A stretch of 14,572 nt of DNA. It comes from Deltaproteobacteria bacterium RBG_13_61_14 (GTDB lineage Bacteria; RBG-13-61-14). The position numbers and the translations under genes are program-made. The notes below the pieces were generated by a model, which was not told the origin of the DNA, did no database searches, and worked only from the letters and a program-made list of their open reading frames with translations. Within the stretch, counting starts at the first letter, position 1, and the number at the start of each line of letters is the position of its first letter. Positions 1,646-14,070 of this stretch are shown piece after piece. The stretch is from positions 3,387 through 17,958 of the forward strand of contig MGQK01000046.1 in assembly GCA_001797815.1 (NCBI GenBank). The letters are read 5' to 3'.

Positions 1646-2713
1646 TCAGGATTTCTTTGAATAAACTCCCGCTTCTTGAAGATATCGGCACATTTCAAGC
1701 AAGGCCTCCAGGTGAACGCCCTCATGGGCCGATCCCGCAATGGAGAAGATATAGCCGCCCCCCTTCATTCCTTCTTTCAAACAGCGCTCGACCTCCTGAC
1801 GGACCAGCCCTAAATCGGATTGACAGAGAATCCAACTTCCGTCGGCATTGCCTAAGAGGACAAGGTCCTTTCCGAATTCTCTTTTGATCTCCCCCAGGTT
1901 CATCCCGGCCTCTGCTTCAATGCCATGAATCCCCTTGATCCCGGCTTCGATCGCCAGGGGGAGATAGTCCCGCACGTACCCTTCGGAATGCCAGAATACG
2001 GGAACGGAAATGGATTCGACAATCCGGCGGTAATAGGGAAAGGCGAGTTCTTTAAAATCCGCGGGAGAGACATATCCCTGTCCCTTGAAGCCCATGTCAT
2101 CCCCCATGATCACGAAATCCACCCCCAACTCGACGGCGTGCTTTGAGGTCTCAATAAACCACTCCGTCTTTAATTCCGCACTTTCCTGAATCAAAGCCCT
2201 TTTCTCAAAGAGGGCATAACAGAACTCTATCAGTCCAAAGGCTTCAATGGTTAAACCGAGAGGACCGCTGTGAGAGAAAAGGGCAAAGGCATGATCGGAA
2301 TAGTTCTTCTTCCAATCCTCCATCAACCGACGGTTATAGCGTTCATGCAGTTTCGGCGCAGGCGAATATTTGCGGAGGTCTTCCCGGGTGGCCACCGCGC
2401 CCCCCACATATCGGCCATGTTTCCATCTTCGGCCAAACTCATCAATCCCATTCCAGCCCGCGTAAATGGCGCCTCCGAGGGACTCTTCCGGGGGAGGAGG
2501 ATCGGGAGAGTATCCGAGCCCGGTGGGCTTATCTTCGCACCAAGACCGGCGGGCGACGACGAACACATCCACCCCAAGCTGATTCCAGGTTTTTACCATG
2601 TCGCCCTGGCTAATGGCGTTAACAAACTTGGCCTCGATGGCATTGAAAAAAAGGGGAACCCGGTCCGGCTCTTGATGAGCCATCGTGGTGAGAACCCTTT
2701 CTCGAGAATTCAT
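1646..2713 (-). CDS. URO-D superfamily protein (uroporphyrinogen decarboxylase / corrinoid methyltransferase-like)
   Basis: A 355-residue protein of normal family length. It opens with a segment typical of the superfamily (NSRERVLTTMAHQEPDRVPL) and has GDDMGFKGQ (204-212) followed by a SPADF segment, then HSEG (242-245), the GIEAEAGM stretch (264-271) and LLGNADG (286-292). This fits the broad group of URO-D-like proteins that includes MtaA/CmuA-type corrinoid methyltransferases, rather than true HemE. MtaA-type enzymes use a His-x-Cys zinc site; here the equivalent reads His-Ser-Glu, so thiol methyl transfer of that type is doubtful. GGGAG lies about 7 nt before the ATG. Its GC is far below that of neighbouring genes, and it begins 12 bases after the stop of a broken tcmP, so it looks acquired or moved. 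Substrate unknown. Confidence 0.8.
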   Translation of the reverse strand: MNSRERVLTTMAHQEPDRVPLFFNAIEAKFVNAISQGDMVKTWNQLGVDVFVVARRSWCEDKPTGLGYSPDPPPPEESLGGAIYAGWNGIDEFGRRWKHGRYVGGAVATREDLRKYSPAPKLHERYNRRLMEDWKKNYSDHAFALFSHSGPLGLTIEAFGLIEFCYALFEKRALIQESAELKTEWFIETSKHAVELGVDFVIMGDDMGFKGQGYVSPADFKELAFPYYRRIVESISVPVFWHSEGYVRDYLPLAIEAGIKGIHGIEAEAGMNLGEIKREFGKDLVLLGNADGSWILCQSDLGLVRQEVERCLKEGMKGGGYIFSIAGSAHEGVHLEALLEMCRYLQEAGVYSKKS

Positions 2714-9438: not shown

Positions 9439-9603
9439 ATGACCGAAACCCAAAACTTGGCAGCTCGTCAGCCCCGGATGGAGCCAGACTCCACACCCAA
9501 GCGAACCCTTCCGCCTCGCTGGAAAAACCCCTGGGCCGGCGTGGCCTTGTTGATCCTAGAAGATGGTAGAAGATGGTGTCAGACACTGACTTATGACTTA
9601 TGA
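9439..9603 (+). pseudogene. Truncated second GT39 copy (N-terminal stump)
   Basis: The 54-codon frame reads PPRWKNPWAGVALLIL, closely matching PARWKSPWVALALIIA of the gene just upstream, and at DNA level CTGGAAAA(A/G)(C)CCCTGGG is shared. After LLIL the similarity stops and the frame runs into EDGRRWCQTLTYDL, encoded by short repeats. It is therefore the first ~40 codons of a tandem paralogue, cut off at about 9557. Its TGA lies beyond the stop of the convergent split-barrel gene, so the two overlap by 3 bases. It is presumably not functional. Confidence 0.75.
9557..9600. repeat. Short direct repeats and a palindrome at the paralogue breakpoint
   Basis: TAGAAGATGG occurs twice head to tail (9557-9566, 9567-9576). 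Then comes the palindrome GTGTC-A-GACAC (9576-9586), followed by TGACTTA twice (9587-9600). The last repeat overlaps the stop codon of the convergent gene. The layout suggests an old insertion/deletion scar or the end of a REP-like element. Confidence 0.6.
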
Positions 9604-10437
9604 AAGTTCGGGTGGAAAGATTCTCCGGCCCGGCACGGGCGGGGCCGCGGTGTAGCTTTCCTGCAAATGGATCACGCCTTGCCGGCGGCCGGATTGGTCT
9701 TCTTCGCCCGTGAAAACGCCCTTGACCTGATAAGCCACCGGCGCCAGGGTGAAGACCGATCCGGCTACTTTCATGCCCGGCCGCAGTTGGCTCAGGGGAT
9801 GGTCATCGTTCCGGGGCATGACAAAGGCCAGGTCGTTCGCGCTGCGGGCATGGAGGTCCAGGCACGGCACCGCCACCGGTGTGCCATCCTCCTCCACAAA
9901 GCCCAAGTGCTTCAGCGCCAGCCTTCGGTTGAATTTTTCCAGCACCGGCCCCGGCATCACCGCCGGACCGTGGCCGCCAGGGCCGTCCGCCCGGACCGGC
10001 TCCCGCAGCAGGTTGTAGAACATGGCCGCGGCCAGACCCAGCGGCACCGGCCCGCGCGCTTCCCGCACCCGGATCACCCCCACCTCCCCGGCCCCGGTGT
10101 AGGCGTTGTAGCGGAACATGGCCTTGCGGTTGAAATAATCCAGGTAAGGGCCCTGGCGCACGAACTCCGCGAACTCGCCGACCACGATCCACGAATAGAG
10201 GCCCGGGCCAATCACGTTGATGGTAATGCGGCCGTTGGCCAGCAGGTTCCGCGCCGTCTTCCAGATCATCATCCGCACGAAGATCAGGGTGTTCTCGTCG
10301 GCCAGGCTGGTCGAGAGCAGCGGCACCACGTTGGGGATGCCCTCGTTGCTCTTCGTGGCCGCGAACTTGGGGAAGGCGTCGCCCCGGAGCGCCTTTTGCG
10401 CCGGCCGGGGCAGGCGGTCAAAACGGGCGAGCGGCAT
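9598..10437 (-). CDS. PPOX/FMN-binding split-barrel-like protein, two barrel halves
   Basis: 279 residues. The first half (about 21-126) has the split-barrel pattern: KSNEGIPNVVPLLSTS, then TLIFV, then TARNLLANGRITINVIG. The second half (about 172-261) repeats the theme: EEDGTPVAVPCLDL, then NDLAFVMPRND, then the Tyr-Gln-Val-Lys-Gly element at 236-240. This resembles the pyridoxamine-phosphate-oxidase-like / flavin reductase fold; bound cofactor (FMN, F420 or haem) is not determinable. The ATG at 10437 overlaps the TGA of the glycyl radical enzyme by one base (TGATG), so the pair is translationally coupled and likely works in the same process. A longer frame upstream in this phase is only the shadow of the enzyme gene. 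It could act in electron transfer or in protecting or repairing the partner; that is inference. Confidence 0.75.
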   Translation of the reverse strand: MPLARFDRLPRPAQKALRGDAFPKFAATKSNEGIPNVVPLLSTSLADENTLIFVRMMIWKTARNLLANGRITINVIGPGLYSWIVVGEFAEFVRQGPYLDYFNRKAMFRYNAYTGAGEVGVIRVREARGPVPLGLAAAMFYNLLREPVRADGPGGHGPAVMPGPVLEKFNRRLALKHLGFVEEDGTPVAVPCLDLHARSANDLAFVMPRNDDHPLSQLRPGMKVAGSVFTLAPVAYQVKGVFTGEEDQSGRRQGVIHLQESYTAAPPVPGRRIFPPELS

Positions 10438-12851
10438 CAGCCCTCTCCCCGCACCAGGGCATGCGCCTCGCGGGAAATAATCTCCTCCTGGATCTCCTGG
10501 CCCAGGGTGGTGAAGTAAGCGTTGTAGCCGGTGACTCGAACCAGCAGGTTGTGAAAGCTTTCCGGTTCTTTCTGCGCCTGGCGTAAAAGCTCGGGCGAGA
10601 CCAGGTTCACCTGCAGGGCCGAGCCGCCCTTTTCCGCGTAGCCTTGGAGGAAGGCCTTGAGCTTGTTCCGGCCGGCCGGGGTGCGGAGCAGGGCCGGGTT
10701 GAAGCTGATGGTGTGGGAAGCGCCGTTGGGCACGGTGGAAAGGTCCAGGTTCGCGACCGAGAGCGCCACCGCGGTGGGGCCGCAGCGGTCGGTCCCGGTC
10801 ACCGGGCAGACCCCGTTGGAAAGATAAGTGCCCCGGGGCCGGCCGTCCGGCGTGGCGCTCAGGCTGTTGGCATAAAATATCCAATAGTTCCAGGACAGGT
10901 AGCCGGCCCGGAAGCGCCGGCCGGTCGCCGGCGAGACCCGGCGGAAGACCTCCCGGCTGAAATGAGCGTTCAGGCGACGGGCGATCGCGTCCGCCTCCGG
11001 GTCGTCGTTCCCGTATTTGGGCGCCTTGTGCGAGAGCTTCTGGCGGAGGACTTCCTGGTCTTTGAAGTTGCTGCGCAGCGCCAGCAAGAGCTCGCGCATG
11101 GAGACGCTCTCGGTATCGAAAACCAGCTTCTTGACCGCGGCCAGCGAGTCCACCGCGGTGGCCAGGGCCACGCCCTCGACCGTGATGAAGTTATGCCACG
11201 GCCCCCCGGCCGAGACGTCCTTGCCCTTTTCCGCGCAGCCGTCCACCAGGGCCGATAGATAGGGGGTCGGCTCGAAGCGGGCGCGAATGGCATCCGCCTC
11301 GCCCGCGCTCTTCAGGATCCGGTCCATCAGCGCGTCGAGCTGGGTCTCGAAGGCTCGATAAAACTCTTCAAAGCTCGAGAAGCGCTCCGGGTTTCCGGTG
11401 CGAGCGCCCAGCCGCCACTTCCAACGCAGGTCGCGGCCGTTGCCCATGACCAGCTCCACCGCCTTGGCCAGGTTGAGGTTCACGTCCACCGTGCCCGAGC
11501 GGTCGTTGCCCTGGAGCGTGTTCTCCAGGCACCCGACCGGCGCATAGTCCCAGAGTTTATCTTCCGGCAGACCGGCCCATTTGAGCCCGGCCATGGAGGT
11601 CTCGTCGAAATTGAGCAGGAAAGGCGCGCCCTGGGCCTTGGCCAGCAATTCCACGATCCGGTCGAGCAGTTCGTCCGGCGTGCCGCGGTGCAGCCGGAGG
11701 TTCGGCTTCGGCTCCAGCAGGTTCATGTCCTCGATCACGTCCAGGAACAGCCAGGTCAGCTCGTTGCTCGCGTCCTTCTCCTCCGGCCCGATCCCGCCCA
11801 GCGTGATCAATTGACCGAAGCCGGAATTGATCCCCTGGTTCGGACCGACCCGGCCCATGAAGTCATAAGCGTAATTGTGCTTGATGAAGTAGCACTGCAA
11901 AAGCTCGCGCGCCTGCTCGCGGTCGAGCCGGCCCGACTCGAGATCGCGCCGAAAATAGGGATACAGGTATTGATCCACCCGTCCCGGCGACAGCCCCGGG
12001 CCCGGGTAGCTCTCCGCCGCCATCACCAGCATGTGCGTGAGCCACAGCGACTGCACCGCCTCGGCAAAGCTCTCGGCCGGCTGCCAGGGCACCTTGCGGC
12101 AGCGGCCGGCAATGGCCTGGAGCTCTTTTTTCCGCTCCGGGTCCGACTCGGCTGCGAGAAGCCGTTCGGCTTCTGCGGCATAGCGCTCGGCGAAAAGCCC
12201 GGCCGCCTCGCCGGCAATGATCAGCGCGCGCAAGAACTCCGCATGCTCGGCCGAAGCTCCGGCTTGCAGGGCCTTGAACTCCGCGACCAGGCCCGAGAAG
12301 CCGCGCTCGATCACCTTGGCGTAGTTGGGGATCAGGTGGCCGGGGACCGCGCCGCAGTTGCCGATCCCGAAAAAGTTGAGCCGCAAGTTGGACCAGCGCC
12401 ATTTCTTTTCCGCCCGCTGCCACTCTTCCCGCTCCCGGGGAGTCAGGGTCTTGGAAAGGGCGGTGTTAAAGTAGGAGCCGACGATCAGCTCGCCCGCCAG
12501 GATTTTGACCGGGAGATATTTTTTCAACACTTGCTGGAAGAAAATCGCGCGCCGCACCGCGAGCGGCTCCTGCCAGAAGCCTTCGGGCAATTCCACCGGG
12601 GTGGCGGTGGCGAGCAGGGTGTCCTGCATGGCATTGCTGAAGAGAAAAACTTCGGGCGCTACTCCCCAGTGGTGGGGGGAGAAGAGGATATCGTGGGGGT
12701 CGCCGGTGCTGAAGGCCAGGACTTCATTGCGGAAATAGTCGCGCTGGCGGAAGGAAAAATATTCTTCGCGGAGCCGCTTCACCCGGGGCGAGAGCTGGTC
12801 CGAAGGCGACCAGATATTGTCTTCAATTTTCAGCGCGGTTCCGGTTGCCAT
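10437..12851 (-). CDS. Glycyl radical enzyme (dehydratase/lyase class, substrate unknown)
   Basis: 804 residues, full length. The thiyl-radical Cys441 sits in VGCLE with Glu443 two residues on, the arrangement of dehydratase, choline-lyase and arylacetate-type enzymes, not the Cys-Cys of pyruvate formate-lyase. The glycyl radical is Gly775 in RVTGYNAYF, followed by a 29-residue tail. The Cys-Gly distance (334 residues) agrees with known members. Typical segments such as GHLIPNYAKVIERG and DASNELTWLFLDV are present. The usual GH..xDY Asp is Asn here, which may tune the substrate. The ATG at 12851 has AGGAGG 9 nt upstream. Reaction chemistry requires an activating radical-SAM enzyme, not encoded in the window. 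It is co-directional with anmK and coupled to the split-barrel gene. Class is sure; substrate is not. Confidence 0.9.
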   Translation of the reverse strand: MATGTALKIEDNIWSPSDQLSPRVKRLREEYFSFRQRDYFRNEVLAFSTGDPHDILFSPHHWGVAPEVFLFSNAMQDTLLATATPVELPEGFWQEPLAVRRAIFFQQVLKKYLPVKILAGELIVGSYFNTALSKTLTPREREEWQRAEKKWRWSNLRLNFFGIGNCGAVPGHLIPNYAKVIERGFSGLVAEFKALQAGASAEHAEFLRALIIAGEAAGLFAERYAAEAERLLAAESDPERKKELQAIAGRCRKVPWQPAESFAEAVQSLWLTHMLVMAAESYPGPGLSPGRVDQYLYPYFRRDLESGRLDREQARELLQCYFIKHNYAYDFMGRVGPNQGINSGFGQLITLGGIGPEEKDASNELTWLFLDVIEDMNLLEPKPNLRLHRGTPDELLDRIVELLAKAQGAPFLLNFDETSMAGLKWAGLPEDKLWDYAPVGCLENTLQGNDRSGTVDVNLNLAKAVELVMGNGRDLRWKWRLGARTGNPERFSSFEEFYRAFETQLDALMDRILKSAGEADAIRARFEPTPYLSALVDGCAEKGKDVSAGGPWHNFITVEGVALATAVDSLAAVKKLVFDTESVSMRELLLALRSNFKDQEVLRQKLSHKAPKYGNDDPEADAIARRLNAHFSREVFRRVSPATGRRFRAGYLSWNYWIFYANSLSATPDGRPRGTYLSNGVCPVTGTDRCGPTAVALSVANLDLSTVPNGASHTISFNPALLRTPAGRNKLKAFLQGYAEKGGSALQVNLVSPELLRQAQKEPESFHNLLVRVTGYNAYFTTLGQEIQEEIISREAHALVRGEG

Positions 12852-12883: not shown

Positions 12884-12912
12884 AATATACCTTAAGCCTG
12901 CCGGCAGCGCAA
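12884..12912 (-). promoter_or_regulatory. Possible internal promoter for the glycyl radical enzyme
   Basis: On the minus strand TTGCGC (12907-12912, weak -35) and TATATT (12884-12889, 5 of 6) are 17 bases apart, overlapping the anmK stop. The surrounding stretch TATATTTATAGTATAG is strikingly AT-rich in a GC-rich setting. The enzyme may thus be regulated apart from anmK. Confidence 0.35.
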
Positions 12913-14070
12913 CGGCCAGCAAAGCTTGCCCAGGACCGCGCGCTTCCCGGCCCCGGTGGCGCCGGGCAGGTTGCCGGGCCGGCCATGCCAGCTTTCATAG
13001 GCCAGGACGGCAAAGGCGATCGCCTCCTTGGCATCGGCCGGGACTCCCAGGGCGTCAATGGGAATCACCTTCGCCGGCGCAAAGAGTTCTGCCAGGCGGC
13101 GCATCATCGCCCGATTGTTCACTCCGCCGCCGGACACGATCACCTCGTCCGCCGCGAATTCCGCGGCATAGAATTGGCGATAATGGCGGTAAACCGAGTG
13201 CGCGGTCAGAGCCGCGGCGGTGGCGATCAAGTTGAGCCAGGCTCGGCGCGAGCGGGGTCGCTTCCGGGCCAGGAGGTGGTCCACGAACCCGGTTCCGAAT
13301 TCTTCCCGGCCGGTGGACTTGGGCGGCGGCTTCCGGAAAAAGGGGTGGCGCAGAAGCTCGGCCAGCAGCTCCGGGATGACCCTGCCCTGCTCGGCGTAAC
13401 CGCCGCGCCGGTCAAAGCGCTCGCGGCCCCGGCTCATGCGGCGGGTAAGCTCGTCGCTGACCATGTTACCGGGCCCGGAATCGGAAGCGGCCACGCCGGA
13501 GACCTCCCGGCAGCCAGCCGGAAGCAGGGTGAGGTTGGCGATGCCGCCGAGGTTGAGGAGGATGCGGTTTTGGCGGGGGTGGCGGAAGAGGAGGAAGTCC
13601 ACGTAGGGGACAAGGGGCGCGCCCTGTCCGCCGGCGGCGATGTCGGCCGGCCGGAAGTCGCTGATTACCGGGGTTCCGGTCCTGGCGGCGATGATTGCCG
13701 GCTCCGCCACCTGCAAAGTGGCGCGGATGCGGTGCCGGCCCATGGGTTGGGGATGGGGAAGGTGGTGCAGGGTCTGGCCGTGCGAGCCGATCAAGTTGAT
13801 CGCTGTCGGCTTTAACCCGGCCTGGGCGATCACCTGGAGCACGGCCTCGGCAAAAAGCTCGCCCAGGTAAAAGTTGAGCCGGGCCACCTGGTCCACGGTG
13901 CCGGTCTTGGGCGAAGAGGCCCGGCGGATGAGGTCGAGCGTCGGCTTCGAGTAAGGGATGGTCTGAAAGGCGAGCAACTTGACGCGCAGGGCTTTTTGGC
14001 CCTGGATGTCCACCAGGGCGGCGTCAATCCCGTCGTGGGAGGTCCCGGCCATCAGGCCTACGATCTTCAT
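12892..14070 (-). CDS. anmK: Anhydro-N-acetylmuramic acid kinase
   Basis: 392 residues, normal length. AnmK phosphorylates and opens 1,6-anhydro-MurNAc from cell-wall turnover to give MurNAc-6-P in the cytoplasm. Visible: the phosphate-binding start MAGTSHDGID (7-16), IGSHGQTLHH, SDFRPADIAAGGQGAP with the catalytic Asp, NLGGIANLTL, SGPGNMVSDEL, SGGGVNNRAMM and a C-terminal PADAKEAIAFA motif. In many members the segment before GPGN reads DTGPGN; here DSGPGN. The start lies 2 bases after the M20 gene's stop with no clear ribosome site, so translation probably depends on coupling. No murQ etherase is visible in the window. Confidence 0.95.
   Translation of the reverse strand: MKIVGLMAGTSHDGIDAALVDIQGQKALRVKLLAFQTIPYSKPTLDLIRRASSPKTGTVDQVARLNFYLGELFAEAVLQVIAQAGLKPTAINLIGSHGQTLHHLPHPQPMGRHRIRATLQVAEPAIIAARTGTPVISDFRPADIAAGGQGAPLVPYVDFLLFRHPRQNRILLNLGGIANLTLLPAGCREVSGVAASDSGPGNMVSDELTRRMSRGRERFDRRGGYAEQGRVIPELLAELLRHPFFRKPPPKSTGREEFGTGFVDHLLARKRPRSRRAWLNLIATAAALTAHSVYRHYRQFYAAEFAADEVIVSGGGVNNRAMMRRLAELFAPAKVIPIDALGVPADAKEAIAFAVLAYESWHGRPGNLPGATGAGKRAVLGKLCWPLRCRQA

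Follow-up and report, generated by a model that had tools for sequence, protein, structure and literature searches.

The glycyl radical enzyme (GRE) and the split-barrel protein encoded side by side in the window (the whole stretch of DNA that was analysed, 14,572 nucleotides of contig MGQK01000046.1 from Deltaproteobacteria bacterium RBG_13_61_14) form a pair from an as yet unnamed family of radical enzymes that are sensitive to oxygen. In most relatives an activase gene lies between the two, and this GRE-activase-barrel module is real and conserved. Our preferred reading, to which we assign a probability of about 40%, is that the module combines a lyase-type GRE and its activase with a split-barrel flavoprotein that would be a redox partner dedicated to the GRE. 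The GRE subfamily and its barrel partner are unnamed in the literature and databases searched. No description of the module, or of a split barrel associated with a glycyl radical, was found in the literature searched, many subscription papers being outside its scope.

The gene pair and its neighbourhood in relatives

The features of the pair are collected in Table 1. The GRE belongs to the glycyl radical enzyme superfamily on the evidence of its PFL-like and Gly_radical domains, its loop cysteine, its radical glycine and its fold. A preliminary description, made from the sequence alone, had called the GCLE and glycyl motifs intact, and both are, with Cys441 in GCLE and Gly775 in RVTGYNAYF. The genes are also coupled in the manner proposed there (TGATG): the GRE stop codon TGA (10439-10437) and the barrel ATG (10437-10435) have one base in common. 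In each of three genomes of the window's phylum the barrel gene is single-copy and every copy adjoins the GRE gene (E <= 1e-5); the pairing in this phylum is far beyond chance. Upstream on the same strand, the end of anmK (anhydro-N-acetylmuramic acid kinase, window 12892-14070, minus strand) lies 40 bases from the GRE gene. A role in peptidoglycan recycling, prompted by this gene, was rejected because anmK was not seen beside the GRE gene in relatives. The window also encodes a URO-D family protein (1646-2713, minus strand) that is MtaA/CmuA methyltransferase-like, with scores well under the curated cut-offs of those families.

Table 1. Positions in the window of the GRE gene, the barrel gene and their principal features
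Feature	Coordinates	Strand	Basis
GRE of the unnamed clade, 804 aa	10437..12851	-	PFL-like 445.5 bits and Gly_radical 81.2 bits (Pfam); tree; signature
His172 codon, at the place of the substrate-binding His164 of glycerol dehydratase	12336..12338	-	conserved in 87/88, one gap
YPGPG loop, residues 282-286, in place of the diol-binding His281-Ser282 of glycerol dehydratase	11994..12008	-	alignment
Cys441 codon, thiyl radical cysteine of GCLEN	11529..11531	-	Cys, Glu443 and the next Asn identical in 88/88
Gly775 codon, glycyl radical site in RVTGYN	10527..10529	-	same alignment column as the radical glycine in every reference GRE
Tandem split-barrel (PNPOx-like) protein, 279 aa	9598..10437	-	PNPOx_N 29.8 bits (Pfam cut-off 28.1; N-terminal half only); model mean pLDDT 82; conserved neighbour
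First split barrel, residues 1-132, FMN-binding-protein-like	10042..10437	-	HupZ Z 15.7; D. vulgaris FMN-binding protein Z 13.2
Second split barrel, residues 163-263	9649..9951	-	element order as in the first (whole-protein model)

Eighty-eight loci were scored with activase and barrel profiles, and 74 of these have at least 2.5 kb of downstream sequence. A gene was counted as a neighbour if it lay up to 5.5 kb downstream of the GRE gene and on its strand. At the 74 loci with room, the barrel gene was found at 64 and the activase gene at 60; 56 loci carried both, 8 the barrel gene only, 4 the activase gene only and 6 neither. The barrel and activase genes were always on the GRE strand, most commonly in the order GRE, activase, barrel, and often overlapped or were separated by fewer than 100 bases. 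The barrel gene is thus the usual companion of these homologues, as had been proposed, and the opposite outcome, in which most would lack it, was not seen. Barrel and activase genes, respectively, were present at 2 and 0 of 2 loci with room in the window's phylum, 14 and 14 of 17 in Anaerolineae, 17 and 15 of 18 in Dehalococcoidia, 31 and 28 of 34 in the Asgard phylum, and 0 and 3 of 3 in the L043 phylum. Beyond these three, no gene family recurred widely across groups in the neighbour survey of the relatives, where other neighbours were lineage-bound. Without a conserved catabolic enzyme downstream, no pathway can be named.

The association extends to whole genomes. In the Asgard phylum (227 genomes), a barrel match was present in 92 of the 101 with the GRE versus 10 of the 126 without it (odds ratio 119), although the p-value of this co-occurrence is not a chance probability because these genomes share ancestry. 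In three genomes (G535, G511 and G506) the GRE and barrel genes share a contig but are not adjacent. Pairwise identities of the GRE correlated at 0.87 with those of the barrel protein (53 loci) and at 0.70 with those of the activase; of the two partners, the barrel protein follows the GRE more closely. That the GRE and the barrel protein are nearly always found together suggests that they work on one reaction. At two Asgard loci (L184:10654-11223 and L223:5994-6524), where the barrel and activase genes are not adjacent to the GRE gene, a rubrerythrin-like protein is encoded on the GRE strand just upstream; a function in oxygen protection is possible.

Relatives of the GRE were found in Chloroflexota, in one phylum of Asgard archaea and in two small phyla, usually encoded in a single operon with the activase and the barrel protein; many are from sediment bacteria and Asgard archaea. 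Close relatives (54-67% identity) were found in two lake-sediment genomes of the same order, in Anaerolineales, Dehalococcoidia and a small bacterial phylum, and in a Helarchaeota bin. In the genome sets searched, whose lineage labels were taken from a named anchor record in each, the GRE was present in 3 of 3 genomes examined of the window's phylum, 5 of 7 of the L043 phylum, 34 of 396 of the class of the Anaerolineales anchor, 19 of 393 of the class of the Dehalococcoidia anchor and 101 of 227 (~45%) of the Asgard phylum of the Helarchaeota anchor. Asgard carriage is not an artefact of contamination, since two of the loci (L177 and L185) are on contigs of 4.9 and 4.4 Mb. One locus labelled Methanophagales, ANME-1 (L047, JANJFQ010000164.1) is most likely mis-binned, because it shares 94% DNA identity over 3.5 kb and the same gene order with a Dehalococcoidia contig (L040). 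The GRE is thus carried by nearly half of the Asgard genomes examined and by some sediment Chloroflexota. Single-cysteine Asgard GREs have so far been read as alkane- or aromatic-activating enzymes; if the clade consists of lyases for another substrate, carbon-cycling claims that rest on such labels would need review.

Phylogeny and active site of the GRE

In a quick tree, the 35 sampled members of the clade formed a single branch (SH-aLRT 100) with a stem of 1.05 changes per site. The branch lay outside glycerol dehydratase, CutC, HypD, AfPflD, YbiW, PflB and the other GREs of the same genomes. The tree contains no verified Ass, Bss or Mas members (IslA and BssA are absent), and the sister group of the clade is not settled because of long branches among the reference enzymes. 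The expectation that the GRE would fall outside the known substrate clades was borne out for those represented in the tree. Taken with the gene order, this separate clade shows that the conserved pairing marks an uncharacterised type of GRE, and the earlier interpretation is supported in that part.

Profile searches gave a similar placement. The best NCBIfam match was TIGR01774 (PFL2/glycerol dehydratase subfamily), at 467.2 bits against a cut-off of 678.2. The HypD profile gave 414.6 bits against a cut-off of 1100, and scores for the HypD, CutC and HpsG/HpfG equivalogs (the last being sulfopropanediol dehydratases) ranged from 342 to 424 bits against cut-offs of 1000-1100. Among PDB sequences the best score was to glycerol dehydratase (1r8w), and MasD and BSS reached 238 and 192 bits compared to 371 for the lyase side. 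The structure comparison leans to the lyase side as well: the GRE model, whose active-site loops are weak, gave Z scores of 30.8 for HypD, 29.4 for GDH, 29 for CutC, 26.9 for MasD, 25-26 for BSS and 22 for PFL. HypD, the trans-4-hydroxyproline dehydratase (6vxc), is the closest structure, tied with other dehydratases, yet it differs from the clade in its active-site residues and in the profile score given above.

The 88 members of the clade share a signature that consists of YPGPG, FGQ, NFD, GCLEN, TV-D/N, SWNY and RVTGYN. In the YPGPG loop, Gly284 and Gly286 are present in 88/88 and residue 285 is Pro or Ala. In the alignment, Glu435 and His164 of glycerol dehydratase correspond to Glu443 and His172 of the window GRE, and we take the glutamate at this position to be the catalytic acid-base of GRE lyases. 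Ser282, His281 and Asp447 of glycerol dehydratase are replaced in the clade by Gly, Pro/Ala and Val, respectively, which leaves only His164 of the four diol binders. The small residues at the diol-binding positions suggest a larger or differently bound substrate. Because the Cys-x-Glu and His of lyases are kept and the residues that bind a small diol are lost, we read the enzyme as a probable C–X lyase for a larger substrate. Disulfide chemistry through a second active-site cysteine (Cys166) was considered and dropped, as this residue is conserved in only 41 of the 88 members.

Two readings assign the GRE to a known chemistry. It might be a glycerol or 1,2-propanediol dehydratase of a glycerol pathway, with the barrel gene an accidental passenger; the B12-independent enzyme of Clostridium butyricum (1r8w) has in common with it the GRE fold, Cys-x-Glu, the substrate-side His and the glycyl loop, besides the top PDB and NCBIfam scores. 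A glycerol-kinase-like gene (FGGY family) also divergently adjoins the GRE gene in three Dehalococcoidia loci. We consider this very unlikely, since TIGR01774 falls about 200 bits short of its cut-off, the diol binders are not kept, and the clade is separate, long-stemmed and marked by its own signature and a barrel partner. The kinase is no neighbour in other lineages, whereas the barrel gene is, and a glycerol pathway deduced from the kinase was rejected because the kinase gene was seen only at the Dehalococcoidia loci. Ether-lipid cleavage, prompted by the kinase and a supposed geranylgeranyl reductase, was likewise rejected, as Pfam shows only generic FAD families.

The other is a fumarate-adding hydrocarbon enzyme, like alkyl- or benzylsuccinate synthase. 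The clade resembles Asgard Ass/Bss-like GREs and the Archaeoglobus fulgidus PflD (2f3o) in having one loop cysteine and in its occurrence in archaea of anoxic sediments, but the tree does not place this PflD within the clade. GREs of Hermodarchaeota that carry a single loop cysteine have been called Ass/Bss (PMC8163825), and Guaymas Basin GREs outside the known groups were left unassigned (PMC6258724). The single cysteine, these labels and the putative PPOX protein of a limonenylsuccinate synthase operon (described below) speak for this reading. The lower scores of MasD and BSS, in structure and in sequence, argue against it (BSS is absent from the tree). To our knowledge, fumarate-adding GREs also lack Cys-x-Glu, which is retained in 88/88 members of the clade, and we regard a fumarate-adding reaction as very unlikely.

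The split-barrel protein as a possible redox partner or reductase

The PPOX-like neighbour with two barrel halves that had been described earlier was recognized both by profile and by fold. PNPOx_N matched the N-terminal half above the Pfam cut-off, the fold agrees with membership in the PNPOx-like split-barrel group, and the whole-protein model shows two halves with their elements in the same order. Conserved positions are found in both halves (63 members). The first barrel has the fold of HupZ and the Desulfovibrio vulgaris FMN-binding protein (Table 1); further structure matches were to a Lactobacillus PPOX protein (Z 14.7) and to F420-binding proteins (11-12). Unlike those single-barrel proteins, the window protein has two barrels in tandem and accompanies a GRE. 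HupZ-type proteins bind heme, and for this reason FMN, although the likeliest cofactor, is only a candidate. One putative PPOX protein with no clear role, LssP, is among the expressed products of the limonenylsuccinate synthase operon (PMC12583861). It is likened to the barrel protein by description and its GRE is of the fumarate-adding type; by analogy, it may be an independent hint that PPOX-type proteins accompany GREs.

In the redox-partner reading, the activase would place the radical on Gly775, from which it would pass to Cys441. Cys441 would then take a hydrogen atom from a substrate larger than glycerol, and Glu443 and His172 would aid departure of the leaving group, with cleavage of a C-O, C-N or C-S bond beside an alcohol carbon. 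The barrel protein would bind flavin in its first half and serve the GRE as a dedicated redox partner, most likely by donating single electrons, which would support activation or keep the enzyme active. We favor this reading because the GRE-activase-barrel order spans bacteria and archaea, and because of the Asgard co-occurrence and the identity correlations. In addition, the barrel gene remains with the GRE gene at the 8 loci that no longer have the activase gene nearby, the Cys-x-Glu and His are kept and the diol binders lost, and the fold is of the FMN type. The lack of a conserved downstream catabolic gene would be expected of a barrel protein that works for the GRE itself, and LssP provides a putative PPOX protein expressed from the operon of an unrelated type of GRE. 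The reading is weakened by the L043 phylum, where GRE and activase genes occur with no barrel gene next to them, by the heme-binding relatives and by the poor active-site loops of the GRE model.

Nearly as likely is the same module with the barrel protein as an FMN- or F420-dependent reductase that removes the GRE product (an aldehyde, enal or imine), in the way that ProC reduces what HypD makes. The tighter coupling of the barrel than of the activase to the GRE fits a product reductase as well, and F420-dependent reductases are among the structural neighbours of the barrel. Various other flavoenzymes beside the GRE in some lineages also fit; lineage-dependent FAD/FMN enzymes inside or beside the module (L194:3018-4352, L204:9291-10793, L176:8810-10741, L149:6486-7775 and L038:2405-3850) include generic FAD oxidoreductases and amine-oxidase-like, NADH:flavin oxidoreductase and acyl-CoA dehydrogenase proteins. 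However, a product reductase would be expected to have further catabolic genes alongside, none of which is conserved, and the L043 phylum manages without an adjacent copy. We favor the redox partner by a small margin; a conserved flavin partner, if real, would bear on how GREs are activated and how their activity is kept up. More speculatively, GREs may be able to have a dedicated flavin split-barrel partner that either feeds electrons to the radical system or restores it; such a partner is nearly fixed across the Asgard/Chloroflexota family described here and perhaps recurs in unrelated GRE operons such as lss.

Activases in the genome of the window

The preliminary description had noted that no activase is nearby. 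This holds for the window and for its 47.6-kb contig, on which the TIGR02494 profile, run over the whole genome, found none; it does not hold for the system, in which 60 of 74 loci carry the gene. The missing activase is a local rearrangement or exception, since most relatives have it between the GRE and barrel genes. The window would thus hold two of the three module genes, the radical-SAM activase having moved elsewhere in the genome. The search for it there gave two matches over the TIGR02494 cut-off (4.7 Mb, 132 contigs), on contigs C9 and C11. The C9 activase adjoins another GRE of this genome and grouped in a tree with activases on contigs of C9-type GREs of two relatives (100/100). The C11 activase is a stand-alone protein of 302 aa that was placed, with weak support (82/84) and on a long branch, next to activases of GRE-activase-barrel operons. 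By profile match and tree, it is the best candidate for the activase of the window GRE. A third GRE match, on contig C34 (L008:9193-9555, minus strand), is a 120-aa N-terminal piece with no catalytic core after it and is probably what remains of a third GRE that has been lost.
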